Shown: in pieces, positions 24,300-41,291 of the stretch
Numbering within the stretch: position 1 is the stretch's first letter
Layout of the letters: every line of letters starts with the position of its first letter
NCBI GenBank assembly: GCA_946402275.1
Contig: CAMIVY010000011.1
Location: 1-64,000 of the forward strand
Reading direction: 5' to 3'
Length of the DNA: 64,000 nt
Origin: an uncultured Prevotella sp.
GTDB taxonomy: Bacteria > Bacteroidota > Bacteroidia > Bacteroidales > Bacteroidaceae
Notes under the pieces: model-generated
What the model saw: the letters and a program-made list of their open reading frames with translations, nothing else
Database searches by the model: none
Told to the model about the DNA's origin: nothing
Position numbers and translations under genes: made by a program

Positions 24300-24360
24300 A
24301 AATTACTTTCGGAGAAAATTTATTTCTATTCGGAGTATTGGAAATTACTTTCGGAGTATT
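24300..24360 (+). repeat. Outer inverted repeat, left copy
   Basis: About 60 bp built on ATTACTTTCGGAG repeats. The reverse complement recurs at about 41194-41253 with one clear mismatch. Together with the homologous terminators and C10 gene ends at 24385-24540 and 40995-41169, it forms the outer boundary of the mirror-image SusCD block. Confidence 0.85.
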
Positions 24361-24384
24361 GGGGGCAGGTCTTTTCATGAATAA

Positions 24385-24420
24385 AACAGGGCAAGAACGT
24401 ACATTGTTCCTGCCCTGTTG
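24385..24420 (-). terminator. Terminator after the left C10 protease gene
   Basis: AACAGGGCA(A)GAAC / GTTCCTGCCCTGTT stem-loop 26 bp after the protease stop on the minus strand. The right-hand protease gene ends with a homologous hairpin (41134-41169). Confidence 0.7.
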
Positions 24421-24445
24421 ATTATCTACAGATAAAAGAATTCTG

Positions 24446-26131
24446 TTATTTTATAATCACCTTACGAACGGTATTGCCCTGCTTACGAATTACCAAACCT
24501 TTGGACGGTCCATTCAGCTCACGTCCCTGTAGGTCATAGTAACGGGTGGTAGCATCTTCCGAAGAATATGATATCGGATGGATAGCTGTCGGCAACACAT
24601 CTGTCTCCTCTTTCTTGTCTATTGTTACGGAACGGTCTTCATGGATCGTAATAGTATAGACATTGTATTTTCCACCAATCTGCCTAAGAGCCTGATATGT
24701 TGGTTCCTGAATTGCCTTGGATGCAAAATATGCGTAGTAAGTGCCTACAGAAAGCTCAGCAAGAAGATGTTCACTTGACTCAAAACTATATCCAGTGCCG
24801 CTTAATACGGGTTCGAAGTCTTTACTTGTATCAAGGAATGGCAGTAAAAAACGTTCGCTACCATCAGTCTTTTCAAAATAGAGACCCATAACCCCATAGA
24901 AGGTTAAATGATGGATGTTAAAAGCAGTAAAACCAGAAATTTTCAGCCTCTTAAACACACTTTGCGACAGTGTTTCTGCAACAGTAACACCCCATGTGGA
25001 TTTGTATTCCTCTTCTTCTGTAGGAACAGGATTCGTTCTAAGTCCTATCACCATGCTTTGATCCTCGGAAAAAGAAGAATTCTCACCTTCCGGAGTTAAC
25101 ACATCAATAGCTGTCCAACAGTCACCTTTTCCACTCCATCCCCAGTTCACGAAAACATTGTCTTCTTCGTCAATGCCATGTAGCACAAAAGCATGTCCCC
25201 CTTCAGCAGCATCCTGTCCGCCATAAAGAATAGGACGACCTGCTTCTAACTCCGCACGAATAAGCTGCATCCATTCCTCATTACCACAAAACTTACGTTC
25301 CAAAGCACGTACAGCCAGAGAGTCGCACTTGAAGTTATGACTTAATGCTGCTCCTGTTCTAGAAAGGATAGCTCCACTGGCCTTAGCATCGTAATTCATA
25401 TGAACAGCTACACCACAATCATATAGCAATTGAGCTATGGCCTCTTTTTTTTCCTCTGGAAGGAAGATTGGATTGAAATATGTGTCTTCATACAATGTCC
25501 AATCGTAAGTGCTGTTTAACTCAACGTAATGTTGGACTTTACCATCGGAAATAGTGTAATACCCTTCCCCCTCACTACTGTCAGGATATTTGTAATAATA
25601 GAGCACCTGAGCCAATGCAGTAGCTACACAGCCTGATGGAGGAAGAGTTCCTTTTTCATCAACAGCAGGACATTTCTTGTTAAAAGGATCTTTTTGATTC
25701 CATTTGCATGTCAGAAATGGCTCAACCTTGATTTTAGAAGCACGATGAGACAAGGCATAATCTGTCTTGCCAGATGCCAAATCCCTTGCCAGAACCTGAG
25801 ATATGGCATTGAGCCACCATTTCATGCCACAAGGAATATCATTGAAATCAAAAAACTGATCAGAGTAAGCCAATACCGGGCGTAAACGCTGATCGTTGCT
25901 TACAACAACAAATCCCGAATTGTCACTTCCCAATATAGTGTACATAGGATCTTGTTTTAGCACCTCAATAGCGTTCAGTTCTTGCGCTCTATGCAGTGAA
26001 CCATCAATACCATGCAGCTTTTGTAACTTCTGCAAAGCTATCTGCTTCATTTCCTGTTGACTGCGAGTCTGCGCAGAAGCTGTTACGGTAAACGCCAGTA
26101 AAGTAAAAACTAATGCAAATAATCTTGTCAT
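24446..26131 (-). CDS. Secreted C10-family (streptopain-like) cysteine protease, left arm
   Basis: 561 residues. Signal peptide (1-20), Spi-like propeptide, and a C10 papain-like domain with catalytic Cys168 in PPSGCVATALAQ and His313 in GGHAFVLHG, followed by NVFVNWGWSG. It ends with the YYDLQGRELN...KVIIK sorting domain, identical but for one residue to that of the right-arm protease, while the catalytic parts differ strongly. It is last in the left SusC-SusD-lipoprotein operon but behind a terminator hairpin, and no promoter box is seen in the 85-bp gap, so read-through probably controls its level. It likely cuts host or dietary protein, or targets acting with the SusCD importer. Confidence 0.88.
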   Translation of the reverse strand: MTRLFALVFTLLAFTVTASAQTRSQQEMKQIALQKLQKLHGIDGSLHRAQELNAIEVLKQDPMYTILGSDNSGFVVVSNDQRLRPVLAYSDQFFDFNDIPCGMKWWLNAISQVLARDLASGKTDYALSHRASKIKVEPFLTCKWNQKDPFNKKCPAVDEKGTLPPSGCVATALAQVLYYYKYPDSSEGEGYYTISDGKVQHYVELNSTYDWTLYEDTYFNPIFLPEEKKEAIAQLLYDCGVAVHMNYDAKASGAILSRTGAALSHNFKCDSLAVRALERKFCGNEEWMQLIRAELEAGRPILYGGQDAAEGGHAFVLHGIDEEDNVFVNWGWSGKGDCWTAIDVLTPEGENSSFSEDQSMVIGLRTNPVPTEEEEYKSTWGVTVAETLSQSVFKRLKISGFTAFNIHHLTFYGVMGLYFEKTDGSERFLLPFLDTSKDFEPVLSGTGYSFESSEHLLAELSVGTYYAYFASKAIQEPTYQALRQIGGKYNVYTITIHEDRSVTIDKKEETDVLPTAIHPISYSSEDATTRYYDLQGRELNGPSKGLVIRKQGNTVRKVIIK

Positions 26132-26165: not shown

Positions 26166-26200
26166 GAAAAAGTGCGCAACTAACATTGCGCACTTTTTTA
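26166..26200. terminator. Bidirectional terminator between left lipoprotein and protease genes
   Basis: AAAAAGTGCGCAA / TTGCGCACTTTTTT, a 13-bp stem with A/T tracts on both sides. It stands before the protease gene in the direction of operon transcription, as does a different hairpin in the right arm. Confidence 0.8.
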
Positions 26201-26216: not shown

Positions 26217-27194
26217 TTACTTTGCACCAGGCCAACCATCAGTCCACTGGAATGCGAATGTGAAGCCTTGATAATAGCCATCACCATTCCAGATACCGAA
26301 CATACTTGCTTGATAAATATTCTCCTGACGCACAATAGTGAAGCGAGAAGCATATTTCTCAGGCCAGCAGAATACGAAGGAGCCCTCAGAAGCATGAGTA
26401 AACTGAGACACGATTCCGCTAGCACTACCATCAGTTACCAACGTCATATCATAGTTCTCATCAAGTGTAAACTCAATGTCAGTTGCACCAGAGCAATCAC
26501 TTCCATACAAGTAACTCCAAGGAGTTACAATACGGTACTTGTTGGTACCCAGACCATTTAGGATGGGCACATTCTCTGCCATTGCTGGATCTGCAAATAC
26601 TGTATAATCCACAAACATACATGAACCACACTGAACCCACGTCAGATTCTTCTTGAAAGTGATAGTGGTCTGGAGTTTATAGTTTTCCAACTTCTTCTGG
26701 TAAGTTGCATAAGCAACCGACTGAATTTCGTATGCGACAGAATCCTCATGTGTAGATTGCTTGGTCAAAGGTTCTGGCTCTTCAACCTCCTCAAAACCAA
26801 ATTTCTCAGGATCAAGCGTCAGCCTTACTTGTTGATTAACTCCAGGAACAAGTTCCTCTTTGAAGTGAATAGGGAATAAAGCTGTGTTAGAACCATCTTC
26901 AAACGTAACTTCAGCAGGTGTAGAAATCACACTGGGATCTGTCATTGCTACCTTTACAGGAATTGTAACCTTGCCACTTTTAGTACCACGGGTAATTGTA
27001 ACATTTATATCCGTATCCTTCAGTTGGTCACTTCCCTCGAAGGTGTAAGACGCCGTTGAGTTATTAAAGCTATAGGTTTCACCATTGCCCAACTCTGCAG
27101 AAGACGCCTGCTCCCAATATCCGCTGTCACTGCACGATGTCAGCATTCCGCTGAGCAGTGCGGCTGCAACTAATAATGATTTATTAAGTTTCAT
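26217..27194 (-). CDS. SusE-like surface lipoprotein, left arm
   Basis: 325 residues with a lipoprotein signal (LLSGMLTSCSDS; lipid Cys at about 21, followed by acidic/Ser residues as in surface lipoproteins). A beta-rich N-terminal domain of the Calx-beta/DUF type (VTFEDGSNTALFPIHFKEEL) is followed by a C-terminal domain rich in aromatics. It stands in the third position of a SusC-SusD operon, where SusE/F-type binding lipoproteins occur. Its right-arm counterpart has the same order of domains but low identity. Ligand unknown; with a linked protease, a peptide or glycopeptide is possible. Confidence 0.75.
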   Translation of the reverse strand: MKLNKSLLVAAALLSGMLTSCSDSGYWEQASSAELGNGETYSFNNSTASYTFEGSDQLKDTDINVTITRGTKSGKVTIPVKVAMTDPSVISTPAEVTFEDGSNTALFPIHFKEELVPGVNQQVRLTLDPEKFGFEEVEEPEPLTKQSTHEDSVAYEIQSVAYATYQKKLENYKLQTTITFKKNLTWVQCGSCMFVDYTVFADPAMAENVPILNGLGTNKYRIVTPWSYLYGSDCSGATDIEFTLDENYDMTLVTDGSASGIVSQFTHASEGSFVFCWPEKYASRFTIVRQENIYQASMFGIWNGDGYYQGFTFAFQWTDGWPGAK

Positions 27195-27220: not shown

Positions 27221-28885
27221 TTAGTTTACAGGAACTGGAACAAGAGTTGGTGTTCCCAAGTTGTTATCACGCTCATTAATGAGTTTGTTAGACTGAATCT
27301 CCTCGTTAGGAATCTGAAAAATCAGATAGTTGATATCAGTTCCTGTTACACTACCATTACCATTCTTAACAGTCTGGATAGCAGCACGCTCACCCTCTAC
27401 CGTATCTTCAATACGATAGTTGTAGTTCTTCAGCTTCTCGTCAATCGAAGCAAACTTCGTGCTGGCACGGTCAATACCCTTACGCAGACGGAGCAAATCG
27501 AAGTAAGAAAGGCCCTCACCCCAAAGCTCGATTCGACGCTGAATCCATACCTCATCTTGAATTTCTTTATCTGAAGAACCTTCGCAAGAATAATCTGGGT
27601 CACGATAGGTCTTCACAAAAGTTTCAAGAGTAGTCTTTCCCTGAGAAGCATTACCACTCATAGCCTGAGCCTCAGCGAGAATAAGGTACATCTCCTCAAT
27701 ACGCATCAAAGGAATATCATTGGCATTGGTTGAAGTACCCAGTTCTTCCTTATAAGGAGCAAACTTAACCTGAGCATAAGGAGGAATATCTTTAGAATTT
27801 ACATAAGTCTGCTGCTGAGTTGAAAGGTTATTGCTCTTACAATTTGCATCAAGGAACCAGCCCTTACGTGCATCAGAAGGATTAATCTCCTCATACAGCG
27901 AAGGATTAATCATACGCCAAGCACCTACACTGGCATAACCATAGTTGAACGAACCCATGTGAGAAGGCCAGTTAACAATAGCCGATGTAACAACACGATC
28001 AGTCTCTGAAATAAAGATACCCCACATCCAGTTGTTCTCAGTCATCTTGATGAAACCTGGCTTCTTAGCAGCCTCGAATGAAAGCGGAGTAGCATCTGAG
28101 TTATCAATAGCAGCCTGAGCATCTGCAGCTGCAGCACTCCAGTTCTGCATTACCAGATTAACACGGGCACGAAGACCATAAGCTACAGCCAAATCCACAT
28201 AGCGCTTGTCTGAACGTATCTCACTGGAAGCTGTAAGAAGTTTAATGGCCAAATCCAGATCCTTCATGATCTGTTCGTAAACTTCACCAACTGTGTTACG
28301 GGCGATACCGTTAACACCAGCCTCAGTAGCATTGGTCTCAAGAATAATAGGTACACCAGGAGCGTCCTCGTTACCTTTATAGGTAAACTGGAACTGCTGA
28401 ATCAGATTGAAATAATCAAACGCACGGATGCACAATGCCTGAGCCAGATAGAACTGCAATGTAGAATTCTCCGTTTCTGCATCAATCTGACCTACCACAG
28501 CATTTGCGGCATAAACCTGATTATAATAGTTAACCCATGCATAGTAAGATCCATAAGCACTCAAGCCGCGGTCGCCCAATGACAAACCAGAAGCATACCA
28601 GTTATAGCCAATATCGAAACCTATAAAGTCAATGCCTCGGCTGTCGAGAAACAACATCATTGACGCATGTCCAAAGTCATGATGAGCAGTAAAACTCTTC
28701 TGATAAACACTGAACATGGTTGTGATACCCGTCACACTTGCACTTACTTTCGACGGGTCGTTGGCAGCAACTTCGGCCTTCTGGTCAGCAGTAACCGTAC
28801 TTCCTTGAGGAGCTGTGTCCAAATCAGCACAGCTTACTGTCAACATACTGGCAACAGCCAGATAAAATATTTTGTTCATTTTCAT
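27221..28885 (-). CDS. SusD/RagB-family surface lipoprotein, left arm
   Basis: 554 residues. Lipoprotein signal with Cys at about 20 (TVSCADLD), TPR-type helical scaffold of SusD (RAFDYFNLIQQFQFTY, YGLRARVNLVMQNWSAAAAD), the LMRIEEMYLILAEA helix, and the terminal SusD domain (WIQRRIELWGEGLSYFDLLR). SusD caps the SusC channel and binds the ligand outside the outer membrane. The gene lies 22 bp downstream of SusC. The right-arm SusD is a clear paralogue. Confidence 0.93.
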   Translation of the reverse strand: MKMNKIFYLAVASMLTVSCADLDTAPQGSTVTADQKAEVAANDPSKVSASVTGITTMFSVYQKSFTAHHDFGHASMMLFLDSRGIDFIGFDIGYNWYASGLSLGDRGLSAYGSYYAWVNYYNQVYAANAVVGQIDAETENSTLQFYLAQALCIRAFDYFNLIQQFQFTYKGNEDAPGVPIILETNATEAGVNGIARNTVGEVYEQIMKDLDLAIKLLTASSEIRSDKRYVDLAVAYGLRARVNLVMQNWSAAAADAQAAIDNSDATPLSFEAAKKPGFIKMTENNWMWGIFISETDRVVTSAIVNWPSHMGSFNYGYASVGAWRMINPSLYEEINPSDARKGWFLDANCKSNNLSTQQQTYVNSKDIPPYAQVKFAPYKEELGTSTNANDIPLMRIEEMYLILAEAQAMSGNASQGKTTLETFVKTYRDPDYSCEGSSDKEIQDEVWIQRRIELWGEGLSYFDLLRLRKGIDRASTKFASIDEKLKNYNYRIEDTVEGERAAIQTVKNGNGSVTGTDINYLIFQIPNEEIQSNKLINERDNNLGTPTLVPVPVN

Positions 28886-28907: not shown

Positions 28908-31900
28908 TTAGAATGTTACTTTAACACCACCGCTAATGGAACGGATAGCTGAGTAGTACTTGTTCTGCGAAGAAATTACGCCAATACGTGGGTCAAGACC
29001 CTTGCGAGCACTAAACAAGGCAACATTGTCAGCTGAGCAATAGAAGCGAACAGCATCCAACTTGATACGTCTTGTGATAGACTTGGGTAAGGTATAGCCC
29101 ACCGTTATGTTGTTAATTGACAAATAGTTTGAAGATACCAACCAACGGTCAGACTGCGCATTGGTGTAAAGATCACCTACTGCAATACGAGGAACATTAG
29201 TATTCGTATTGGTTGGAGTCCAAGCATTCAAGATATCCTTGTGCCAAGCCTGACCTGTGGTACTGCTGGTACCAGAATGCATCAAACTCTGATAACCGTT
29301 ATCAAAAAGCTTACCACCTAACTGATAAGAAGCCTGGAAGGAAACATCAAAGCCATAAGCCTCCAAAGATGCGCCAAAACCACCATTGAATTTAGGCTGC
29401 AGATTACCAGTAGCCTGACGGTTAGAAGTACGAGCCACATTCCAGTCGGTAGTAGCATACTCTACGTCATTATCATCCTTGGCCCAATAGAGAGCCATAC
29501 CGGTAGCAGGATCAACACCTGCATACTTAACCAAATAATACTCATACATAGAGTGACCCTCACGATAGATGCGAGAACCATCAATCAGCTCTCCTTCAAG
29601 GTCGGGATGGAGCTCGAGAATCTCATTGCTGTTGTGAGTGATGTTGAAATCAAGGGCCAAACTAACATCCTTAGTGTTAATCAGCTTAGAGTGTAACTCA
29701 ATTTCAATACCACGGTTACGCATAGAACCGATATTCATTGGGATTGATGCATAACCATTTGATGGAGCAACAGGCTTATTGTACAACATGTCCTTGGTAG
29801 TACGATTATAGTAGTCGATAGAACCTGAGAGCTTGCCACCCCAGAATTCAAAATCTACAGCCAAGTCGAAGGCATTACTCTTCTCCCATGTCAACTCCTT
29901 GTTACCTTTATAAGTCAAAGTTGCGTCTGAGAACACACCATCTGCACCAGTCATTGAGTACTGATCAACATAAGCATAGCTATTGCCGATATTGTCATTA
30001 CCCTGCTGACCGAAAGAAGCACGGAGTTTCAGGAAATCAATCCACTTAGCGTTCTCCAAGAATTTCTCCTTACCCAAGTTCCATGCAGCAGAAGCAGACC
30101 AGAAGGTACCCCAACGGTTGTCCTTGTGGAAACGTGAAGAACCGTCAGTACGCAAGCTGACGCTAGCAAAATACTTCTCCATAAAATCGTAATTAATACG
30201 ACCAATCCAAGAACGCATTGCATAGGAACCCTCAGAACCATAACCACGACGCTGGTCGATAGAATTATTTACAGCCCATGAACCTGCACGATAAAGGTTC
30301 TTACCATAAGCAGTTGACGACTCTGATTTGTAGTCATAGGTCTCATATACACCTAAGATGTCAAAACTGTGCTTGTCTGCAAAGGTATGACGATAAGTTG
30401 CCATATACTGCTGAGTGATACCCAAAGTACGATCGTGCTCCTGCTCGGCCTCACCACCTGAAGCCTTGCTTTGTCCATAAAGAGGACTGGTAGCCATATG
30501 GAAACGGGTATTGTCAAGGTTAACACCCAGGTTATAAGTCAGTTTCAACCCCTGAATAGGAGTGATATCAACACCCCAACGGCTGTTGAAGATATCCATC
30601 AAATAATCATTTGTCTGATAGGTCAGGTCACCGATTGGGTTGGCAATAGCCATCGTATTACGAGTGAAGTTTCCAGTTGTACCATCACCATAATCGTAAA
30701 CAGGATTACTTCCATTATACATAATCTGTCCATCGGCATCACGAGTATAGAAAGGATATACAGGACCCAGCGTAGCAGCAACACCGAAAGCATTACCAGA
30801 AGAGTTGCTCTCAGTCTGGTCGTCAGGATAGTTGCTAGTAGAGTTGGTATAACTAACATTAGCACGTAAATTCAACCAGTCCTTTGCCTTGTACTCAACA
30901 TTCAAACGAGTAGAGATACGCTCGAAACCAGAACCAACAATAACACCTTCATCTTTCAGATAACCAGCTCCGAAGTAATATGACAGGCGGTCTGTACCAC
31001 CACTTACACCTGCCTTATATTCCTGACGCAGGCCATTACGGAAACTTTCCTTCTGCCAATCATCAGGAGTATAGAAATACATACCATCGCTATAACCCAG
31101 CTTGGCATTGGGGTTTAATGCACCATCTACATTAAACAGGCTCTCACCGTCAGGAAGTGTCCAGATACGATAACCCGTAGAGTTAGGAACGACACTGTTG
31201 GCAAAAGCGTGAGCATCAGCAATATTGTAGCCTAAGTTATAAATAGCATTATTGTAGTTGGTACGATAAAGCTGCTCATAGTACTGTGCAGTATTCTCAA
31301 TCACATCCATTGTGGTAAACTCACGAGAGTTTGAACCCCAACTAGCTTCAAATGTCACCTTAGCCTCTGTGTTGGTACGACCACGCTTAGTGGTAATCAT
31401 AACAACACCGTTAGCACCACGGGCACCATAAAGTGAAGCAGCGGCAGCATCCTTCAAAACAGAAATCTGCTCAATGTCCTGTGGGTCGATAGCAGAAATA
31501 TCACCATCATAAGGCATACCATCCAACACATACAATGGAGACATACTAGCATTGATTGATCCATAACCACGAATGCGAAGAGTAGAAGAAGTACCGGGCT
31601 GACCTGTTGAAGAGGTAGCTGTTACACCTGCAATGTTACCTGCCAATGCATTTGTAATGTTAGATACCTGGCGAACTTCAATCTTACTAGCATCAATAGC
31701 AGATGCAGCACCAGTGAACTGTGACTTCTTGGCAGTACCATAAGCCACAACAATCACCTCATCGAGGGCTTTCTGATCGCTAGTCAGCATGATACGCATG
31801 TTGGGACGAGCCGTAATTTCAATTGGCTCCATACCTACGTAAGTGATACGCAAGGTATTCTTACCTGCAGGACATGTCAGTGAGAAGCGACCGTCTGCAT

Positions 31901-32063
31901 CTGTTACAGTACCTACCTGTGTTCCCACCACCAATACAGAAGCACCAATAACGGGCTGTCCGTCGTCCTGTGAGGTCACGGTACCATTAACTTTTGTCTG
32001 GGCCAATGCTGTTCCTACCATGAGGAAGAGCGCGGCCAAAAACATCATTAGTCTTTTTTCCAT
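28908..32063 (-). CDS. SusC/RagA-family TonB-dependent transporter, left arm (promoter-proximal as read)
   Basis: 1051 residues from ATG 32063 (a GTG lies two codons upstream). Signal peptide ending at ALAQ, carboxypeptidase-D regulatory-like domain (TKVNGTVTSQDDGQPVIGAS), TonB-box region (EVIVVAYGTAK), plug (LYVLDGMPYDGD, SVLKDAAAASLYGARGANGV), then a 22-strand barrel ending in aromatic VKVTF. It imports a ligand across the outer membrane with SusD. The first about 118 residues are nearly identical to the right-arm SusC, and the DNA from 31976 to 32082 is a perfect inverted copy of 33449-33555. A promoter at 32161-32193 points into this gene, so the left operon appears ON. Confidence 0.94.
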   Translation of the reverse strand: MEKRLMMFLAALFLMVGTALAQTKVNGTVTSQDDGQPVIGASVLVVGTQVGTVTDADGRFSLTCPAGKNTLRITYVGMEPIEITARPNMRIMLTSDQKALDEVIVVAYGTAKKSQFTGAASAIDASKIEVRQVSNITNALAGNIAGVTATSSTGQPGTSSTLRIRGYGSINASMSPLYVLDGMPYDGDISAIDPQDIEQISVLKDAAAASLYGARGANGVVMITTKRGRTNTEAKVTFEASWGSNSREFTTMDVIENTAQYYEQLYRTNYNNAIYNLGYNIADAHAFANSVVPNSTGYRIWTLPDGESLFNVDGALNPNAKLGYSDGMYFYTPDDWQKESFRNGLRQEYKAGVSGGTDRLSYYFGAGYLKDEGVIVGSGFERISTRLNVEYKAKDWLNLRANVSYTNSTSNYPDDQTESNSSGNAFGVAATLGPVYPFYTRDADGQIMYNGSNPVYDYGDGTTGNFTRNTMAIANPIGDLTYQTNDYLMDIFNSRWGVDITPIQGLKLTYNLGVNLDNTRFHMATSPLYGQSKASGGEAEQEHDRTLGITQQYMATYRHTFADKHSFDILGVYETYDYKSESSTAYGKNLYRAGSWAVNNSIDQRRGYGSEGSYAMRSWIGRINYDFMEKYFASVSLRTDGSSRFHKDNRWGTFWSASAAWNLGKEKFLENAKWIDFLKLRASFGQQGNDNIGNSYAYVDQYSMTGADGVFSDATLTYKGNKELTWEKSNAFDLAVDFEFWGGKLSGSIDYYNRTTKDMLYNKPVAPSNGYASIPMNIGSMRNRGIEIELHSKLINTKDVSLALDFNITHNSNEILELHPDLEGELIDGSRIYREGHSMYEYYLVKYAGVDPATGMALYWAKDDNDVEYATTDWNVARTSNRQATGNLQPKFNGGFGASLEAYGFDVSFQASYQLGGKLFDNGYQSLMHSGTSSTTGQAWHKDILNAWTPTNTNTNVPRIAVGDLYTNAQSDRWLVSSNYLSINNITVGYTLPKSITRRIKLDAVRFYCSADNVALFSARKGLDPRIGVISSQNKYYSAIRSISGGVKVTF

Positions 32064-32112
32064 AAACACTCTCTTGTTATTAAATTAATATATAATTGTC
32101 ACTCTATGTTTT

Positions 32113-32133
32113 ATAACCTCCTTCCCGGAGGTG
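32113..32133 (-). repeat. Left crossover site of the invertible segment
   Basis: 21-bp sequence identical to 33389-33409 in opposite orientation, holding the ACCTCC/GGAGGT arms. It lies in the leader of the left SusC mRNA, about 50 bp before the start codon. Confidence 0.85.
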
Positions 32134-32160
32134 CATAGTTCCAGTAAGGAAAATTTTCGT

Positions 32161-32193
32161 GCAAAGGTAATGCTTTCATTTGTAAACAACAAA
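32161..32193 (-). promoter_or_regulatory. Invertible promoter, TTTG-N20-TACCTTTGC
   Basis: On the minus strand, TTTG (32193-32190), 20 nt, then TACCTTTGC (32169-32161): a full match to the Bacteroidetes -33/-7 promoter. The start is expected near 32157, giving a leader of about 94 nt to the left SusC. It is located inside the inverted sites, so it would drive the right operon after inversion. Confidence 0.85.
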
Positions 32194-32395
32194 TAAAAAT
32201 TATAAAAAATGCACATTTTTACTCAATTATTTAACATTATCCCCTTTTTTTGTGCAAAATAATGCGAAAATGTTGCAAAAAAGTTGCATTCCGTTAAAAA
32301 CTGAAACATATACATTTAGTACTCTCTTTCGTTATAATAAATATAATGTACGCGCGAGAAGAATTATCATTATTAAAATTTAAAAAGAAGTAATT

Positions 32396-33361
32396 ATGAT
32401 AAGAGTCGTATTCAATTTCAGTATCCGCATTTATCATGAAGGGCAGAAAAAAGAAAAGAAGCGGAAACACAGAGGGCCTAAATTTTTGGATATAGTGGAC
32501 AATACTATCAAGACGCTCTTAGCCACACGAGGGAAGAGTACTATAGACAATTATCGTACAGCCATTGCCTCATTTGTCCGATATGCAGGAAGCAATGTTT
32601 CAGTTGGGGACATCAGCAAGCAGATGGTTGAAGGCTGGCAATTGTGGTTGAAGGAACAAGGTGTGAAATTGAACACTATTTCCTGCTATATGCGTTCTCT
32701 ACGCTCTATCATTAACCTTTCTGACATGCCTTCCATTGTATCAAATGCATTCAATACAGTATTTACGGGCAATCTTAAGACGGACAAACGCTCAATGTCC
32801 ACCAGCGATTTACAGAAACTACGTACGATACAGCTGCCAAAGGGCTCCTCTCTCTGCTTTGCCCGCGATTTGTTTCTTTTCTGTGTTTATGCCCTCGGTA
32901 TGCCCTTCGTTGATGTGGCTTTCCTGCGAAAGAAGCAGATAGTTAATGGATATATTGAGTATCAGCGTCACAAAACAAGACAACCCATAAGGGTTAAAAT
33001 AGAACCGCAGATGCAACGCATTATCAAACGTTACAGTCTTCCTGACAGTGCTTACGTATTCCCTGTCTTAACAACAGGTTCCATGAAAGAGTATGAAACA
33101 GCCCGCAATCGATATAACCGTCACTTGCGACAAATATCAAAGATTGCAGGTCTTCGTCGTTCACTCACCTCATATGTTGCCCGACATTCATGGGCAAGTA
33201 TGGCTTACAGCAATAACGTTGATCTGGCAGTCATCTCGAAAGCATTGGGGCATTCCAATACGGAGACGACTATGGTTTATATTCGTGAGATTGACGACAA
33301 TAGAATTGACATGGCCAACCATAAGCTATTAGGAACCATTACGAAAGCCACATATCATTAG
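32396..33361 (+). CDS. Tyrosine site-specific recombinase (DNA invertase of the SusCD switch)
   Basis: 321 residues. Core-binding SAM-like domain (about 30-125), then the catalytic domain with Lys193 (RHKTRQP), Tyr260-x-x-Arg263-His264 (TSYVARHSW), His286 (LGHSNTETT) and nucleophile Tyr295 (MVYIREID). Bacteroidetes relatives that invert promoters or surface-protein genes share this YVARHSW block and usually have RGMSFVD where this protein has ALGMPFVD (166-173), so a usual Arg is Leu. It is enclosed in the segment it probably inverts, transcribed opposite to the promoter and toward the right SusC. Its own promoter is unclear; a poor box (TACATTTAG) lies near 32310. Confidence 0.88.
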   Translation: MIRVVFNFSIRIYHEGQKKEKKRKHRGPKFLDIVDNTIKTLLATRGKSTIDNYRTAIASFVRYAGSNVSVGDISKQMVEGWQLWLKEQGVKLNTISCYMRSLRSIINLSDMPSIVSNAFNTVFTGNLKTDKRSMSTSDLQKLRTIQLPKGSSLCFARDLFLFCVYALGMPFVDVAFLRKKQIVNGYIEYQRHKTRQPIRVKIEPQMQRIIKRYSLPDSAYVFPVLTTGSMKEYETARNRYNRHLRQISKIAGLRRSLTSYVARHSWASMAYSNNVDLAVISKALGHSNTETTMVYIREIDDNRIDMANHKLLGTITKATYH

Positions 33362-33388
33362 AACAAATATCGCCTCTCCATAAACGCC

Positions 33389-33409
33389 CACCTCCGGGAA
33401 GGAGGTTAT
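33389..33409 (+). repeat. Right crossover site of the invertible segment
   Basis: Identical to 32133-32113 read on the other strand. It starts 28 bp after the recombinase stop and lies 58 bp before the right SusC start codon. Confidence 0.85.
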
Positions 33410-33448
33410 CAGACATAAAGTGGCAATTATATATTTTTAATGTATTTA

Positions 33449-33555
33449 TAATAACAAGAGAGTGTTTATGGAAAAAAGACTAATGATGTTTTTGGCCGCG
33501 CTCTTCCTCATGGTAGGAACAGCATTGGCCCAGACAAAAGTTAATGGTACCGTGA
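33449..33555 (+). repeat. 107-bp perfect inverted repeat covering SusC 5' end (mate at 31976-32082)
   Basis: From the end of the leader (TAATAACAAGAG) through the signal-peptide codons to GGTACCGTGA, the two SusC genes are identical over 107 bp in opposite orientation. Beyond it the homology decays to about 90% at the protein level until residue 118, then to ordinary paralogue levels. Such identity suggests recent exchange between the arms. Confidence 0.85.
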
Positions 33556-36500
33556 TCTCACAGGATGACAATCAACCTGTCATCGGCGCGTCTGTTCTTG
33601 TTGTGGGAACACAAATAGGTACTGTTACTGACGTAGAAGGTCGCTTCTCGCTGACTGTTCCAGAAGGCAAGAAGACCTTGCGTATCACTTATGTAGGTAT
33701 GGAACCTATCGAGGTGAGTGCTCGTCCAAACATGCGTATCATGTTGACTAGTGATCAGACTGCCCTCGACGAGGTGATTGTTGTGGCTTATGGTACGGCC
33801 AAGCGTTCGGCATTCACTGGTTCTGCCTCTGAAATCAAATCGGCTGAGATTACGAACCACGTTTCTTCTACAGCCACTAGTGCACTAGTAGGTTCTGTTG
33901 CTGGTGTTCAGGCTACATCATCATCAGGTGCACCAGGCAGTGCGCCCGAAATTACAATTCGTGGTATTGGTTCTTATCTGGCATCTTCTTCTCCTTTGTA
34001 TATTATTGATGGTGTGCCTATGGAACAGAGCGTTTCTACGGTTAACCCACAAGATATCGAATCAATATCTGTATTGAAAGATGCTTCAGCTTCTGCAATT
34101 TATGGTAATCGTGGTGCAAATGGTGTTGTGATTATTACCACCAAAAAAGCCAAGGGTGCTGCTAAAGATGCTGAGGTGAAGTTTGATGCCAAGTGGGGTG
34201 GCAATTCTCGTCTCCTGCCTCGCTATGATGTGATTACTGATCCCGGTCAGTATTATGAAACACAATATCGCGCTATGTTCAATAGCGTTGCTTATAATGG
34301 TGGTACAGCTGCTGACGCATATGCTTTCGCTGACGCTAACCTGTTTAACGAAAACAATGGCGGTTTGGGTTATCAAGTATTTACTGTACCCGATGGTGAG
34401 AAATTAATTGGTACAAACTTCAAGTTAAATCCTCATGCTAAGCTTGGATACAACGATGGTACTTTTACATATATGCCAGACAACTGGTATGATGAGACCA
34501 TTCACAGTGCTTTCCGTCAGGAGTACAATGTCAGTGTAAGTGGTAATACTGGTCGCTTGAGTTATTTTGCAAGTGGTAGTTATCTGAATGACGGAGGACA
34601 GGTAGAGAAATCAAAGTTTGAACGTTATACAGCCCGTACTAATGTGGAGTATCAAGCAAAGTCTTGGTTGAAGTTAGTAACCAATATGGCATTTACTCAC
34701 CGCATCAGCCAGACCCCATCATACGGTTCTACCTATGGCAGTTCCACTAATATGTTCTACTATGCGAACTCCATGGGTGCTATTTACCCATTGTATGTTC
34801 GTGATAATGAAGGAAATATCATGTACGAAGCTGGTCGCACCGTTTATGATGCCAACCAGACAGGTTTCAGACGTCCTAATTTCATGGGTAATGCAGTACG
34901 TGACAATGCCAACAATGACTATCAGTACTATGGAGATATTTTTACTGGTCAGTGGGGTGCGGTTATCACACCAATTGATGGGTTGAATATCACCGCCAAT
35001 ATCAGTGCAAACAGCCTCAACTATCGTTATCGTTATCTCTATAGCCGTTTTGGTAGTGGATCAAGTACTGATGGCATATCCAGTGTGGAATCTGATCGCA
35101 CGTTTACTAGCAACCAGCAGTATTTGGCCAGTTATACGCGCACTATTGCCGATAAGCATAATTTCAGTATTTTGGCAGGTTATGAGCAGTACAATGTAAA
35201 AGACCAAGTTCTCTCTGCTTCAAATACCCATCTTTACGACCCGTTTATTGGTGAAATCGATAATGCTGTAGGTCCTAACGAAGACATGTCTATGTCGTCA
35301 TATACGGACACTTATATGACGGAGGGTTTCTTGGCTCGTTTGAACTACGACTACGATGATCGTTATTTTTTGAATGGTTCTATTCGTCGTGATGCTTCTT
35401 CTAAATTCGCTCCTGGTCATCGTTGGGGTACCTTCTGGTCAATTGGCGCTGCTTGGCAAATTAACAAAGAGAAATTCATGGAGGATGTAAAGTGGGTTGA
35501 CCTGTTAAAACTGAAGGTGTCATATGGCCAAAATGGTAATGATCAGGGCATGGGCTACCACGCATATTCAGACCGTTATAGAGCAACTTATAATAAGGAT
35601 TCCAAGACATACTCTTTGACCATGAGTTCAAAAGGTAATGATGACTTGACATGGGAAACCAAGAAATCATGGAATGTTGGTATTGACTTCTCACTGTTCA
35701 AATACCGTCTGAATGGTACTATCGAATTCTATTCAAGTACTACAAGCGACCTGTTGTGGTCAAAGACAGTACCTTTGTCGTCTGGTCTGATGGTTTCTAG
35801 TTATCCAGCAAACATCGGTAGTCTGCGCAACACGGGTATTGATATCACATTGAACGGAACTGTTATTAAAACTAAGGATATTGAGTGGGGACTGAATTTT
35901 GTGATGTCACACAACAAGAACAAGTTTACCGAATTAGATGAAGCAATTCAGGAAACAGGTCTTCGTTACTCTAACCAAATTATCCGTTTGGATGGTTCAA
36001 GTTATCAGGCATATATGGTTAAGTATGCAGGTGTTGATCCTTCTAATGGTCGTGCTCAGTTCTGGAAAGCATATACATGGGATCCCTCAGAGGAAAATAT
36101 GGCAAAGCCAGAAAGTGAGCGTACACTTGTGGCCATGACTAACACATATGGTGCTGGTCCAATTGTCAAGGAAGAGTTGACTTACGATGTCACTGAGGCT
36201 TCGAAGTACGATGTAGGCGATGTACTGCCTACAGTACAAGGCGGCTTTGGTACAACCTTGAATGCTTATGGTTTTGACTTAAGTGCACAGTTCTCGTTCC
36301 AACTTGGCGGTAAATTCTATGATGGTGCTTATCAGCAGTTGATGCATAATGGTCAACAAGTTGGTCATGCAATGCACAAGGATCTTCTGAATGCATGGAG
36401 TCCTGAAAATACAACTTCAGACATTCCTCGTCTCAGTACTGCTGCCATCGATGACCCAGGTGTCAAATCACAGACAGCACAGGATCGTTTCCTGACTAGT

Positions 36501-36749
36501 TCTAACTATCTCTGTCTGAATAACTTGACACTCGGTTATACTCTGCCAAAGAAATGGTCACAGGCACTTACAATGAAGAGCGTTCGTGTATATTTTTCTG
36601 GCGAGAATCTTTTCCTGTTGACTAAACGTCAGGGTATGGATCCACGTTACAATCATGGTATTGGTTCTATGACATCTGGTGGTGGTCTTGCTTCAGGTAG
36701 TTATTCAGCTATGCGTTCTATCACTGGTGGTGTGACTGTAACCTTCTAA
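33468..36749 (+). CDS. SusC/RagA-family TonB-dependent transporter, right arm (no promoter as read)
   Basis: 1093 residues. Same architecture as the left copy: signal peptide, carboxypeptidase-D regulatory-like domain, TonB box region, plug (LYIIDGVPMEQS, SVLKDASASAIYGNRGANGV) and barrel ending GGVTVTF. The N-terminal 118 residues match the left protein closely; the plug and barrel have diverged, implying a different ligand. No TAnnTTTG box lies between the recombinase and the ATG at 33468, so expression would need inversion of the segment or read-through from the recombinase gene. Codons end in T more often than in the left arm. Confidence 0.93.
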   Translation: MEKRLMMFLAALFLMVGTALAQTKVNGTVISQDDNQPVIGASVLVVGTQIGTVTDVEGRFSLTVPEGKKTLRITYVGMEPIEVSARPNMRIMLTSDQTALDEVIVVAYGTAKRSAFTGSASEIKSAEITNHVSSTATSALVGSVAGVQATSSSGAPGSAPEITIRGIGSYLASSSPLYIIDGVPMEQSVSTVNPQDIESISVLKDASASAIYGNRGANGVVIITTKKAKGAAKDAEVKFDAKWGGNSRLLPRYDVITDPGQYYETQYRAMFNSVAYNGGTAADAYAFADANLFNENNGGLGYQVFTVPDGEKLIGTNFKLNPHAKLGYNDGTFTYMPDNWYDETIHSAFRQEYNVSVSGNTGRLSYFASGSYLNDGGQVEKSKFERYTARTNVEYQAKSWLKLVTNMAFTHRISQTPSYGSTYGSSTNMFYYANSMGAIYPLYVRDNEGNIMYEAGRTVYDANQTGFRRPNFMGNAVRDNANNDYQYYGDIFTGQWGAVITPIDGLNITANISANSLNYRYRYLYSRFGSGSSTDGISSVESDRTFTSNQQYLASYTRTIADKHNFSILAGYEQYNVKDQVLSASNTHLYDPFIGEIDNAVGPNEDMSMSSYTDTYMTEGFLARLNYDYDDRYFLNGSIRRDASSKFAPGHRWGTFWSIGAAWQINKEKFMEDVKWVDLLKLKVSYGQNGNDQGMGYHAYSDRYRATYNKDSKTYSLTMSSKGNDDLTWETKKSWNVGIDFSLFKYRLNGTIEFYSSTTSDLLWSKTVPLSSGLMVSSYPANIGSLRNTGIDITLNGTVIKTKDIEWGLNFVMSHNKNKFTELDEAIQETGLRYSNQIIRLDGSSYQAYMVKYAGVDPSNGRAQFWKAYTWDPSEENMAKPESERTLVAMTNTYGAGPIVKEELTYDVTEASKYDVGDVLPTVQGGFGTTLNAYGFDLSAQFSFQLGGKFYDGAYQQLMHNGQQVGHAMHKDLLNAWSPENTTSDIPRLSTAAIDDPGVKSQTAQDRFLTSSNYLCLNNLTLGYTLPKKWSQALTMKSVRVYFSGENLFLLTKRQGMDPRYNHGIGSMTSGGGLASGSYSAMRSITGGVTVTF

Positions 36750-36788: not shown

Positions 36789-38444
36789 ATGAAAATATAT
36801 AAGATTTCCCTTTTTATGCTTGGTGTGACCATGTTGACAACAGCATGTAACGACATCGACAAACAGAATCCCGAAAGAGGAACACTTACCAAGGATCAAG
36901 TTCAGGCTACGAACGAGGCAATACCTGAACGTATGCAGGCAACCTTCTCTGGCATGTTCTCAATGATGGGACGTCCTCACGGCACATGGCCTACGGGTGG
37001 AAACGCAAACCGTGCTGACGACTTTGGATTTATTATGTCTGCATTATCACTAGACCTAGAAGGTGCAGATATGCATATTCCTGATGTTGGTTATAACTGG
37101 TTTTCTACTTGTGGTGAGTATAGTAGCCGTAATGCAAACTATGCCAATCCATATATCCGTTATGTGACTCCTTATCGACAGATTGGAATCTGTAATGAAA
37201 TTATAGCGTCTTATGCAGCTGATACACAGGATCCTGATGCAATCAACCAGATAGCTCAAGCTCGCGCCATGCGTGCTTTTGACTACATGGCATTGGCTCC
37301 CTACTTTCAGTTTACTTATGCGCAAGCTAAGGATTCCCCCTGTATTCCTATCTTGAAAGATGGTGTTGACTATGCCAATAATCCCCGTGCTACAGTAGAG
37401 GAAGTGTGGAATTACATCTTGGATGATCTCAACTATGCAGTTGAGCACCTTACAGCAGAGCGTACCACCAAAGATAAAATCAATCAAAATGTAGCTTATG
37501 GATTACGTGCTCGTGCAAATTTGGTAATGCAGAATTGGAGTGCTGCAGTTTCTGATGCTGAAAAAGCAATGGAAGGATATACACCTGCTACGATTAGTGA
37601 GGTAAGCAAACCTGCCTTTGTTGATATTAATGAACACAACTGGATATGGGGTATTAATATTACAACAGAGTTGCAGGCTCTTGGTGCATATTGTACGTCT
37701 TCTTCATGGGTTTGTGCTTTTAGCGGTGATAGCTATGCAGCAGCTACTCAGTGCACCCCTATGATTAATGTGCTACTCTATGATAAGATTCCTGAAACAG
37801 ACGTACGTAAGGGATGGTGGCTTGACGAGAACTTGCATTCACCAAACTGGGCCGATCTCTCTTGGACAGATCCGAAAACAGGTGTTACTGCTGTTGGTGA
37901 CCAACTTGGCGAGTTCTATATTGAAGACGTTAAAGAACCATATCTTCCATATACCAATATCAAATTTGGTATGAAGAGTGGTGTTGGTTCAACCATTAAC
38001 AATAATGACTGGCCTTTGATGCGTGTAGAAGAAATGATCCTCATTAAGGCTGAGGCTTTGGCAAAAGGCGGTAACGAGGCTCAAGGTCGTCAGGTGCTGG
38101 AAGATTTTGTAAAGAAATATCGTGATCCTTCCTATTCTTCTACTGCCAGTGGTCGTTCTTTCGAGAATGAAGTGTGGTTTCAGCGTCGTGTAGAGTTGTG
38201 GGGTGAAGGTTTCTTCATGTTTGATGCCCGTCGTTTGAGCAAGCCTATTGTTCGCTTCCAGGCTTCTAAGGCTTCGAATCTTTCGGATGCTTTCATTTTT
38301 AATATATCTTCTGATGACCAATGGCTTAACATGCGCTTCCCTCAGACTGAGATAGACAACAACTTTGGTATTATCGATAACACAGGCAGTCAGATACCAT
38401 CAGCTGGACAAAATCCAAATCTGCGCGATGGCGTTACTGACTAA
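36789..38444 (+). CDS. SusD/RagB-family surface lipoprotein, right arm
   Basis: 551 residues. Lipoprotein signal with Cys at about 20 (LTTACNDID), helical SusD core (ARAMRAFDYMALAPYFQFTYA, YGLRARANLVMQNWSAAVSD) and terminal WFQRRVELWGEGFFMFDARRL. It is the paralogue of the left-arm SusD, with different binding-side loops, and pairs with the right SusC located 39 bp upstream. Confidence 0.92.
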   Translation: MKIYKISLFMLGVTMLTTACNDIDKQNPERGTLTKDQVQATNEAIPERMQATFSGMFSMMGRPHGTWPTGGNANRADDFGFIMSALSLDLEGADMHIPDVGYNWFSTCGEYSSRNANYANPYIRYVTPYRQIGICNEIIASYAADTQDPDAINQIAQARAMRAFDYMALAPYFQFTYAQAKDSPCIPILKDGVDYANNPRATVEEVWNYILDDLNYAVEHLTAERTTKDKINQNVAYGLRARANLVMQNWSAAVSDAEKAMEGYTPATISEVSKPAFVDINEHNWIWGINITTELQALGAYCTSSSWVCAFSGDSYAAATQCTPMINVLLYDKIPETDVRKGWWLDENLHSPNWADLSWTDPKTGVTAVGDQLGEFYIEDVKEPYLPYTNIKFGMKSGVGSTINNNDWPLMRVEEMILIKAEALAKGGNEAQGRQVLEDFVKKYRDPSYSSTASGRSFENEVWFQRRVELWGEGFFMFDARRLSKPIVRFQASKASNLSDAFIFNISSDDQWLNMRFPQTEIDNNFGIIDNTGSQIPSAGQNPNLRDGVTD

Positions 38445-38475: not shown

Positions 38476-39312
38476 ATGAAAAATAAAAAATTATTCTTAA
38501 TGACATGTATCGCCTCACTGAGTCTAGGTTTGACATCATGCAGTGATGATAACAACTACTCTGCTGGTCCTGAGGCGGGTAAGGATGTTGTAACCTTCGA
38601 CAATGAGGAAAATGTTGTTCTCGGTATCGATGAGACAGACTTTACAGTAACTGTAACACGTTCTGATGGTGCAAGTGCTTTGACCGTGCCCATACAGGTT
38701 GTTTCTGCTCCTCCTACAACGACTGTTCCTGAGTCAGTGTCATTTGCAGCAGGTGAGACATCTAAGGAAATTACTGTTAGTGTTGGTGATGGGATCTTGC
38801 CATTCACAAAGTATTTACTTGTTCTCTCTATTCCTATCGAGTATGCGGGAAACACCTACAAGGCAGATCCTGACACATATCCTCGCTACAATGTGAGCGT
38901 TCTCCGTGAAGATTATAAGCCTTGGGCTAAGTGTACCTATGCTGCAGGTGCATTCTATAATCCCTTCCCAATGGAGATTGAATATTCTGAATTGTTGGAT
39001 CTTTATCGTTTGCCAGATTTGTTCAGCGATGGTGTTTCTTGGTTCTTTAAGTGGGATGGTACAAGCGGTGATGATCAGCTTTTCTACATCGCTGATGAAA
39101 ATGGTAATCCTATTTCGAAGTTCTTCTCGGGAATTGTTCATCCTTCCTATGGTAATGTAACTGCAAATATCTTGACAAAAGAAGAAGCAGGTTATCTAGG
39201 TTACTATGAATTCGAAACTGGCCCTGAATTTGTATTCGGTTGTGAATATACCGTTAGTGCAGGATCATTTGGCGCAAAGATAGTTGAAATTTACGATATA
39301 GTTAAGTATTAA
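38476..39312 (+). CDS. SusE-like surface lipoprotein, right arm
   Basis: 278 residues. Lipoprotein signal (LGLTSCSDDNN), a Calx-beta-like domain with VTFDNEENVVLGIDETDFTV and ESVSFAAGETSKEITV, and a C-terminal aromatic domain (KPWAKCTYAAGAFYNPFP). It is in the same position as the left-arm lipoprotein but shorter and only distantly similar. It probably extends the ligand-binding surface of the SusCD complex. Confidence 0.72.
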   Translation: MKNKKLFLMTCIASLSLGLTSCSDDNNYSAGPEAGKDVVTFDNEENVVLGIDETDFTVTVTRSDGASALTVPIQVVSAPPTTTVPESVSFAAGETSKEITVSVGDGILPFTKYLLVLSIPIEYAGNTYKADPDTYPRYNVSVLREDYKPWAKCTYAAGAFYNPFPMEIEYSELLDLYRLPDLFSDGVSWFFKWDGTSGDDQLFYIADENGNPISKFFSGIVHPSYGNVTANILTKEEAGYLGYYEFETGPEFVFGCEYTVSAGSFGAKIVEIYDIVKY

Positions 39313-39326: not shown

Positions 39327-39371
39327 AAAAACGGACGTGTTTCTGCCATAAACAGAACACGCCCGTTTTTA
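39327..39371. terminator. Terminator between right lipoprotein and protease genes
   Basis: AAAACGG-CGTGTTCTG type stem against CAGAACACG-CCGTTTT with a T-tract on the + side. As in the left arm, it stands between the lipoprotein and the C10 protease, though the sequences of the two hairpins differ. Confidence 0.8.
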
Positions 39372-39389: not shown

Positions 39390-41108
39390 ATGAAGAAGCT
39401 ACTTACACTATTTGTATGTCTACTCGCAACAGTATGCTCTAAGGCTGATCCTGTTGGTTTGGAGGTTGCCAAAAATGTTGCTCAAAAAGTTTTGGGCAAG
39501 CAAGTGCGACTGTTGGGAAATAGTAATTCACATAGAGCTACGAAACAGATAGAGGCAAATCCAACGTATTATATGTTTAATGCGGAAGATGGTAGTGGAT
39601 TTGCTTTGATTACAGGCGATGATATGCTTCCTCAGGTTTTGGGCTACTCAAGTACAGGTAAGTTATCAGAGAAGTGTGATTTGCCAGAAGCTCTCGCTAC
39701 TTACTTGGACATTTACGACCAGTATGTTAATGCGGTTCGTAACGGGCAGTTATCAGATACAGAAGATTTGACAAATGCCTTTGCTCTTAGACGTGGTGCA
39801 GGTGCGCCATTCCTTTGTGAATCAGAGTGGGGCCAAGGTGACCCATATAACAGGCTATGTCCTGTATTGAAAGATATTAGGTGTCCAGTAGGATGTGTGG
39901 CAACTGCGTTAGCTCAAACGATGTTTTATTGGAAATGGCCTATTAAAGGTCAAGGTTATGGTCAAGGAAAAGACACGGATGGTGAAACACATCATGGAAC
40001 ACTAGAGCACACCTATGACTGGGACATTATGAAAAATACTCGCGTTGAAAACCTTGCATCCGACGAGGCATGTGCCGCTGTTTCGCAACTTTCATATGAC
40101 TGTGGATTGGCTGTTGGTATGACGTGGGGAACAAATGGTAGTGGTGCTGGCACACCTGTTTGTATCAAGGCCTTATATACCAATTTCGGATACATACCTA
40201 CAACGCTACGTCCTCGTATGCGCGAATGCTATGACTCAGAAAAAGATTATTTAACGGTTATTGCCGAAGAAATAGATGCTGGAAGGCCTGTCATTCAGTC
40301 TGCTTCCTCAAAAACAGGTACTGATGGGGACGCTGCAGGTCATGCCTATGTGATAGACGGTTACGATGCCAATGGTTTTGTACATGTGAACTGGGGATGG
40401 AACGGTGATGCGAATGGATACTTTGATTTGGCAAAAATGAATCCAATGGGTTATACGTTCACTTTGTCGCAAACTACTATTACAGGTATTGTACCTGCTA
40501 AAAATGGGGAGACAGGTACTCCAACAGAATATCCTTATTTGGCATATTCACCTAAGTCAGACCGTAAACTAGGTGATAAGATACGTTGGAAATCAGTATC
40601 TTTTAAAGCTACTGTAGGTGGTGTTTATAATTACAATGGTAATGCGCATACTTGGACGATGGCACTTGGTGTGTATGATAATAATAACCGACTTATAGGT
40701 CAGATTAGTGACCCACGTAACACCATAACAATCTCCTTAGAGCCAAGTCATTATTATAAAGAGGATGCTTTCTCAAATATAGAATGCAAACTAAATAAGG
40801 AATTGGAAAATGGTGAATATGCTGTTCGCGTGATGTTTAAAGAGAATAATGGTGAATGGATATTGCCAGATATGGCAGGTGGTATGAAAAAAAATGCTAT
40901 TTACTTTAAGTTAGAGGGTAATTATATTACATTTACCGATGGAACTGAATATAATGCCACGACTAGCATTTCAAGTCTAAAACGGGACGAATCACTCGAC
41001 TCGTCACTCCGTTATTACGACTTACAGGGACGTGAACTGAATGTACCATCCAAAGGTCTGGTAATTCGTAAGCAGGGCAACACCGTTCGTAAGGTGATTA
41101 TAAAATAG
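39390..41108 (+). CDS. Secreted C10-family (streptopain-like) cysteine protease, right arm
   Basis: 572 residues. Signal peptide (1-19), propeptide, and a C10 catalytic domain with Cys169 (PVGCVATALAQ), His317 (AAGHAYVIDGYD) and HVNWGWNG after it. The C-terminal sorting domain YYDLQGRELNVPSKGLVIRK is one residue different from that of the left protease. The gene has no promoter box of its own and lies behind a terminator, so it probably depends on read-through from the right SusCD operon. It should be secreted or surface-attached through the type IX route. Confidence 0.88.
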   Translation: MKKLLTLFVCLLATVCSKADPVGLEVAKNVAQKVLGKQVRLLGNSNSHRATKQIEANPTYYMFNAEDGSGFALITGDDMLPQVLGYSSTGKLSEKCDLPEALATYLDIYDQYVNAVRNGQLSDTEDLTNAFALRRGAGAPFLCESEWGQGDPYNRLCPVLKDIRCPVGCVATALAQTMFYWKWPIKGQGYGQGKDTDGETHHGTLEHTYDWDIMKNTRVENLASDEACAAVSQLSYDCGLAVGMTWGTNGSGAGTPVCIKALYTNFGYIPTTLRPRMRECYDSEKDYLTVIAEEIDAGRPVIQSASSKTGTDGDAAGHAYVIDGYDANGFVHVNWGWNGDANGYFDLAKMNPMGYTFTLSQTTITGIVPAKNGETGTPTEYPYLAYSPKSDRKLGDKIRWKSVSFKATVGGVYNYNGNAHTWTMALGVYDNNNRLIGQISDPRNTITISLEPSHYYKEDAFSNIECKLNKELENGEYAVRVMFKENNGEWILPDMAGGMKKNAIYFKLEGNYITFTDGTEYNATTSISSLKRDESLDSSLRYYDLQGRELNVPSKGLVIRKQGNTVRKVIIK

Positions 41109-41133
41109 CAGATTCTTTTATCTGTATATAATC

Positions 41134-41169
41134 AACAGGGCAGGAACTAACATTGTTCTTGCCCTGTTT
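41134..41169 (+). terminator. Terminator after the right C10 protease gene
   Basis: AACAGGGCAGGAAC / GTTCTTGCCCTGTT hairpin, an inverted homologue of 24385-24420, followed by TTTA. Confidence 0.75.
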
Positions 41170-41193
41170 AACGTCCCATGACTATGGCATAGT

Positions 41194-41253: not shown

Positions 41254-41291
41254 TTCTGTCATAATCAGTTTGTGGTTTCAAAATATAATTG

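Follow-up and report, generated by a model that had tools for sequence, protein, structure and literature searches.

Inversion of SusC/SusD systems is not in itself new. The B. fragilis Tsr0667 system is reportedly a SusC/SusD shufflon (Nakayama-Imaohji, 2009). Another reference point is Hin, a serine recombinase whose outward promoter drives one operon. According to the portions available of two papers, inversion by B. fragilis Tsr0667 alters which SusC/SusD is expressed, and Tsr0667 acts as a master invertase whose targets are three SusC/SusD clusters plus nine further regions and whose multiple inversion is of the shufflon type (PMC4747536, PMC11852207). In B. intestinalis, PVR3 and others are large inversions of TonB-transporter/SusD clusters, often with a dedicated recombinase gene (PMC8375218, partial text), and invertible-segment orientations near SusC/SusD genes have been reported to differ in IBD (PMC10939037, partial text). 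The Salmonella flagellar switch carries the Hin recombinase inside its own invertible segment (PMC5903667, partial text). C10 peptidase genes, the other component of the locus below, have been reported in B. fragilis (PMC2873492, partial text).

The locus described here lies in a 64,000-nucleotide stretch of DNA (hereafter the window, positions 1-64,000; all coordinates follow its numbering unless another locus is named), the source being in all likelihood a Prevotellaceae of the rumen. We consider it likely, from the arrangement of sites, genes and promoter, that the encoded recombinase flips positions 32134-33388 and that a promoter in this segment thereby drives either the left or the right SusC-SusD-lipoprotein operon. 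We further infer that flipping would occur in living populations and that one operon would be expressed to the exclusion of the other. As in the Tsr0667 system, so far as the available text describes it, recombinase-driven inversion (here predicted) would change the SusC/SusD system expressed; unlike that system, the recombinase lies inside one promoter segment, the site pair occurs once in its genome, and two fixed operons are involved. The B. intestinalis inversions, on the partial account at hand, resemble it in affecting TonB-transporter/SusD clusters with a dedicated recombinase gene. They differ in that whole clusters invert and the recombinase flanks them, whereas here a 1.3-kb segment would move and the operons would stay. 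With Hin the locus shares a recombinase gene within its own segment and an outward promoter; it departs from Hin in having a tyrosine recombinase and an operon at both ends. Like Bacteroidetes invertible promoters, it has a promoter between inverted repeats beside a surface operon, and both orientations occur among relatives.

The two 21-bp sites, at 32113-32133 (minus strand, where it reads CACCTCCGGGAAGGAGGTTAT) and 33389-33409 (plus strand), are inverted copies with the same arms and centre, and CACCTCCGGGAAGGAGGTTAT occurs once per side. A preliminary description of this DNA had placed the recombinase gene and promoter between two identical inverted sites, each with 6-bp arms around a 5-bp centre, and both statements were borne out, ACCTCC-N5-GGAGGT being matched at each site. 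The predicted invertible segment between them is 1255 bp long (32134-33388); the prediction draws on the inverted sites and on opposite orientations in two pairs of related loci, L055/L057 and L050/L056. The 17-mer core of the site has 2 matches in the window at three or fewer mismatches, against 0.04 expected from shuffles. Within the 3.38-Mb genome from which the window comes, ACCTCC-N5-GGAGGT marks these two sites only; the looser ACCTC-N7-GAGGT occurs at five places, with a centre common to these two only. The Tsr0667-type trait of more than two sites, multiple inversions and distant loci was thus absent from this genome (89% complete), which has two identical-centre sites. The centre, GGGAA, is asymmetric and would therefore fix inversion as the outcome. 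Outside the sites the mirror symmetry continues, over 47 bp at 91% and over 763 columns at 76%: the left inner mirror (31387-32133), made up of the leader and the 5' part of SusC, aligns to the right inner mirror (33389-34144), with an exact 107-bp run at 31976-32082.

The recombinase gene (32396-33361, plus strand) encodes 321 amino acids with matches to PF00589 and PF13102. The PF00589 score is 50.8 bits, the catalytic domain has Arg II, His III and Tyr, and domain matches in the protein were to tyrosine recombinases only, with no serine recombinase domain. Residues K193, R263, H286 and Y295 are invariant in all 59 aligned recombinase relatives. The canonical Arg I is absent: GMP stands in place of GLR, and all 19 switch recombinases have P170. 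Where outgroup recombinases carry the alternative RGM arginine (in the region of residues 157-173), the switch recombinases have L, M or F. With both arginines missing, the chemistry of the recombinase is not fully accounted for. R191, present in 19 of 19, and R157, present in 18 with K in the remaining one, are candidates for the Arg I role. A substituted Arg I has been described in the IntCTnDOT group (PMC8138268, partial text). Judged by dN/dS, the recombinase is under purifying selection: the ratio is 0.133 for the window against L033, its closest relative compared at the DNA level, and 0.150, 0.070 and 0.229 in three other pairs, the fifth pair (window against L036) being saturated. We rejected the idea that the switch recombinases form one clade, as their label changes 8 times on the 59-row tree; shuffled labels gave a mean of 16.2 changes, and none of 500 shuffles was as low as 8. 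A recombinase protein search returned 26 clusters at 89% identity or more among the matches listed, and a scan of IMG/VR with the recombinase and with the 21-bp site gave no match.

Between them, the two ends of the segment carry a single complete promoter box, TTTG-N20-TACCTTTG, which lies at 32162-32193 on the minus strand and faces the left operon. One further match to it was found in the window, at 45299 (0.19 expected). No complete box occurs in the 200 nt at the segment's right end, in agreement with the earlier claim that the promoter is aimed at the left SusC and that the right SusC has none. The predicted state in this assembly is thus left operon ON and right operon OFF. A terminator scan of 33362-33461, between the recombinase gene and the right SusC, found none, so the OFF operon may leak from recombinase transcripts.

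Could the segment instead be frozen in this lineage, a former switch that now serves as a fixed promoter for the left operon? The window and L033 (recombinase 91% identical) have the segment in one orientation, and the 95-kb source contig was assembled across the locus, as a frozen segment would allow. We nevertheless regard freezing as unlikely, given that the sites are perfect and the recombinase is intact, with the low dN/dS against L033 (0.13). In addition, matches to the recombinase tend to lie on segment-sized contigs, which weakly suggests movement. Among clusters seen in Logan only, the longest contig was 1.6 kb or shorter in 43 of 51 for the recombinase and in 5 of 28 for PdxA from the same genome; this compares the best 120 of 866 recombinase matches with the best 120 of 7415 PdxA matches, and identity falls to about 50% among the recombinase rows but no lower than 78% among the PdxA rows. 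Short contigs would fit assemblies that break at the segment ends, for which the mirror leaders alone may suffice.

The same architecture recurs in related genomes (whose loci carry L numbers). The first sample comprised the window, L033, L034 and 60 stretches fetched around recombinase relatives, 63 in total; dropping L034, the same locus as L038, left 62 stretches, in which L044 and L045 are identical stretches from two genomes. L035, a 4.8-kb contig, stands outside the 62-stretch counts. A second sample added 10 more genomes, and for all promoter-direction and flank counts the loci were re-oriented to the recombinase strand. SusC genes point away on both sides in 22 of the 62 stretches and in 6 of the 10 further genomes, giving 28 distinct loci, window included. 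No such pairing was seen in 20 additional regions from 18 genomes, of which 17 regions (15 genomes) belong to other genera of the family; in this small sample the architecture is confined to genus g1, itself probably Prevotella.

The sites of these loci follow a common rule. Choosing sites by their arms alone (ACCTC-N7-GAGGT, at most one mismatch in 10) yielded exactly one site per side in 19 of the 22 loci. The 7-nt centres are identical, in inverted sense, within all 19 of these loci but between loci in just 2 of 171 pairs, and 17 distinct centres occur among the 19. Strand exchange by tyrosine recombinases needs matching DNA between the cuts, so this co-variation of centres is an expected mark of their sites. 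Identical-centre pairs whose arms vary are present in four later loci (L119, L121, L122 and L126); the search rule for these and for L038 included the centre, and they are hence no test of the centre rule. With them, the segment of 24 of the 28 loci lies between two inverted sites of about 17 bp that share one centre. Under the rules used, the other four (L046, L048, L118 and L125) gave no identical-centre pair, L048 having a near pair.

Some loci are more elaborate. The perfect site pair of L038 is 8.7 kb apart (9471-18159 on the recombinase strand), with the promoter 17 nt inside the outer site; its segment encloses an additional complete SusC operon together with a VapE-like gene, and near-identical promoters lie at 13180 and 18109. 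Five longer segments contain genes for VapE-like proteins (two), AAA-type ATPases (two) and a PD-(D/E)XK transposase (one), which we set aside as parts of the switch, their families pointing to likely insertions. Two loci, L046 and L122, have on the right a further, more remote SusC that is matched by the left SusC's mirror leader (97% over 406 bp and 80% over 395 bp), which hints at loci with more than two operons.

The promoter is as regular as the sites. Each of the 24 loci with a site pair has an outward-facing complete box with 20-nt spacing at one end of its segment, 16-77 nt inward from the site, whereas the 200 nt next to the other site hold no such box. In the 19 strict loci the -7 box is TAnnTTTG, a TTTG or TTCG stands exactly 20 nt upstream of it, and the distance inward from the site is 16-43 nt; L038 and the four later loci have the same one-ended promoter 17-77 nt inside it. 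When spacings of 19-21 nt are permitted, the promoter is one-ended in 23 of 24, as L042 has a second, weaker box at its other end, 142 nt in. The box lies 5' of the recombinase gene in four loci (window, L033, L036 and L037) and 3' of it in 20. The layout described earlier from the window alone, one promoter for two operons, is therefore repeated in 24 loci, window included.

The preliminary description had suggested searching relatives for a flipped segment, and two pairs provide it. L055 and L057 share a 1,250-bp segment at 95% identity, with recombinases 96% identical and the same site, and the segment is opposite relative to one shared operon (4.8 kb, 89%), while the second operons differ. 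In L055 the promoter faces the shared operon; in L057 it faces the other one. In the second pair, L050 and L056, both operons (84% and 83% over about 5 kb each) are on swapped sides, and the recombinases are 64% identical. Swapped arrangements of this kind could also come from homologous recombination in the mirror leaders or from operon exchange. Beyond the shared operon of the first pair, a 1.75-kb stretch (L055 11109-12862, L057 762-2515, both numbered on the recombinase strand; 93%) is also turned round, and may be a second invertible or mobile unit.

Comparison of close relatives shows that the operons differ even where the segment is shared. Between the window and L033 the right operon is 99.3% identical over 5,781 columns and the segment 91.5%, and the left operons are unlike beyond the 5' end of SusC. 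(Near its 5' end, around 7123-7174, the right SusC of L033, from RUG11543, is missing 49 bp that the window has, and its listed frame begins later, at a TTG at 7232, either a real lesion or an assembly artefact.) L062 and L063 are alike in the recombinase (99.4% of residues) and in one of the operons (97.7%), but not in the other. Conversely, similar operons occur beside distant recombinases: the left operon of L038 is the right operon of L041 at 96%, with recombinases 57% identical, and the left operon of L033 is the right operon of L039 at 87%, with recombinases 51% identical. The 200 nt outside the sites average 82% identity within a locus (range 0.66-1.0, 19 loci) against 49% between loci (168 pairs, three close pairs left out). 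Taken together, these comparisons show that operons pass between loci as cassettes, replacement via the mirrored leaders being the simplest reading.

An alternative is that general homologous recombination between the mirror leaders inverts the segment, with the recombinase a relic or acting elsewhere. The leaders can be long (763 columns at 76% in the window; L057 has 431 bp at 93%), and the operons of near relatives differ on one side only. We think this explanation improbable, however, on several grounds. The recombinase is under purifying selection. Centres are the same within loci and different between them while the arms are conserved, a pattern that only site-specific exchange needs. 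The leaders of L041 and L049 are just 66-70% identical and yet their sites are perfect, and 6 of 27 loci have no mirror match at the blastn threshold used. Site-specific inversion by the encoded recombinase remains our preferred reading. Least credible of all is that a small mobile element, ending in inverted repeats and encoding a tyrosine recombinase, inserted between divergent SusC operons and switches nothing: although the recombinase, inverted-repeat ends and length of about 1.3 kb resemble a compact element, and related recombinases occur at loci without SusC, SusC flanks both sides in 28 loci, an outward promoter lies beside one site in 24 of 24, orientations differ between relatives, and the motif pair is present once in its own genome.

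What would such a recombinase switch between? As had been described, the gene order running outward is the same on both sides, SusC, SusD, putative lipoprotein, hairpin and C10 peptidase, as judged by Pfam and TIGRFAM profiles and lipobox-like starts. The left operon, on the minus strand, consists of a SusC/RagA-type transporter (28908-32069; TIGR04056, 813 bits), SusD (27221-28885; PF14322, PF07980), a putative surface lipoprotein with an LTSC lipobox-like start and no Pfam family (26217-27194), a hairpin at the lipoprotein/C10 junction (26167-26198) and a C10 peptidase with I69 prodomain (24446-26131; PF01640, PF13734; PDB match interpain A 3bb7; Cys motif GCVATALAQ). Its counterparts on the plus strand are a SusC/RagA-type transporter (33462-36749; TIGR04056, 787 bits), SusD (36789-38444; PF07980, PF14322), a putative surface lipoprotein, again with an LTSC start and no Pfam family (38476-39312), a hairpin at the same junction (39327-39370) and a C10 peptidase with I69 prodomain (39390-41108; PF01640, PF13734; interpain A 3bb7). 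The transporters resemble RagAB-type importers: in the PDB, RagA (6sli) ranks first among the matches of the left SusC and second among those of the right one. We know of no such switch at ragAB.

The two operons encode clearly different proteins. Left and right SusC are 47% identical, SusD 37% and C10 31%, while the lipoproteins align over no more than 127 residues, at 26%. The two sides are nearly alike, by contrast, in their leaders and at the start of SusC, over its first 100 residues (48 of 50, then 41 of 50, in the first two blocks). Far from the switch there is a second mirror: the left outer mirror (24296-24545), covering the 3' end of C10 and the sequence downstream, aligns over 254 columns at 85% to the right outer mirror (41009-41259). 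It spans about 250 bp at the outer ends of the two C10 genes, whose proteins have near-identical C-terminal tails despite 31% identity overall. An outer mirror at both operons is clear in the window alone among 27 loci compared, fetched stretches often stopping too early; L036 has a 60-bp outer mirror near the edges of its stretch. Elsewhere in the window, an abiF RNA (8335-8371, minus strand; Rfam RF03085, 58.5 bits) adjoins an open reading frame of 309 aa (7415-8344, minus strand), and the two are perhaps an abortive-infection unit.

Both C10 proteins have the C10 domain, the I69 prodomain and the catalytic Cys and His motifs, the combination of prodomain and motifs that is also found in interpain A and streptopain (PDB). 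They differ from known C10 peptidases in their setting, behind a hairpin in operons under a predicted switch. No T9SS tail (TIGR04183) was matched in these two proteins, and a C10 protein of L049 gave one weak match below the cut-off. As for the terminators that had been claimed before C10, folding gave strong hairpins on both sides, and a consensus terminator scan listed the left one only. From hairpin to C10 start codon (ATG) 19 and 35 nt remain, which leaves little room for a separate promoter, so coupling of C10 to the switch would need read-through. The hairpin is not universal, as 5 of 9 other junctions folded with one and 4 without, and three of the four hairpin-less junctions have gaps of 20 nt or less. 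C10 and Mx1 peptidases recur in switch operons, and the proposed coupling of the switch to C10 peptidases is tempered by the intervening hairpin, with its dependence on read-through.

The extent of that recurrence can be gauged from the genes behind SusD. A profile scan covered 48 such genes: the 4 of the window, plus 44 taken in 15 loci from a list of 54 genes spread over 17 loci. It found 12 C10 peptidases, 5 Mx1 metallopeptidases and 5 DUF4302 proteins, and no glycoside hydrolase among the 22 Pfam families matched. The scan omitted four genes no longer than 225 aa, a pair of near-copies in L063, three genes of L038 (two of which were scanned separately) and one of L048. Among switch loci, C10 genes are present in 9 of the first 22 and in 4 of the 6 later ones. 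Within 10 kb downstream, C10 follows 9 of 18 switch SusC genes and 2 of 111 other SusC genes (Fisher p about 1e-7), counted by eye in 9 genomes that were chosen by the analyst, five of them for C10-bearing switches, with G049 left out; by plain distance, the switch count is 10 of 18. The genome of the window itself has 12 SusC genes above the family cut-off and three C10 genes, two of which are in this locus. RagA is a peptide importer. The peptidase cargo, the absence of glycoside hydrolases among the scanned genes and the RagA matches in the PDB all suggest that the switched systems are probably for peptides rather than polysaccharides.

In the mechanism that we propose, the recombinase would flip the segment at the two sites by strand exchange within the asymmetric centre GGGAA, and the operon facing the promoter would alone be strongly transcribed. 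The two operons would import different peptides, and each C10 peptidase would be made from read-through past the hairpin, at a level below SusC/SusD. The operons are probably joined to the switch through the mirror leaders and act over evolution as cassettes that can be exchanged. The literature searched, a partial coverage with many subscription papers outside it, contained no recombinase and promoter flipping between two fixed SusC/SusD-peptidase operons, and the available portions of PMC12632263, PMC8748976, PMC12959208, PMC12548429 and PMC11868660 held nothing closer. The novelty claimed in the preliminary description thus applies to the combination, whereas SusC/SusD inversion and a recombinase inside its own segment (Hin) were each already known.

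If this reading is true, phase variation in Prevotellaceae goes beyond on/off and picks between two whole systems of peptide uptake and secreted protease. It would also mean that switch and cargo evolve apart, the recombinase segment staying in place as operons are exchanged between genomes. The paired co-variation of centres at each locus would keep one switch from cross-reacting with another. New members can be sought with a simple rule that is usable on metagenomes: an inverted ACCTC-N7-GAGGT pair with identical centres, a PF13102/PF00589 gene and one outward TTTG-N20-TAnnTTTG. The widest interpretation, to which we give about even chances, is a genus-wide family of "socket" switches, in which peptide-uptake/peptidase operons are cartridges exchanged across species at the mirror leaders, giving each strain its own two-way choice of diet and surface antigen. 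Such switches may bear on rumen protein breakdown and on escape from phages that use SusC receptors.
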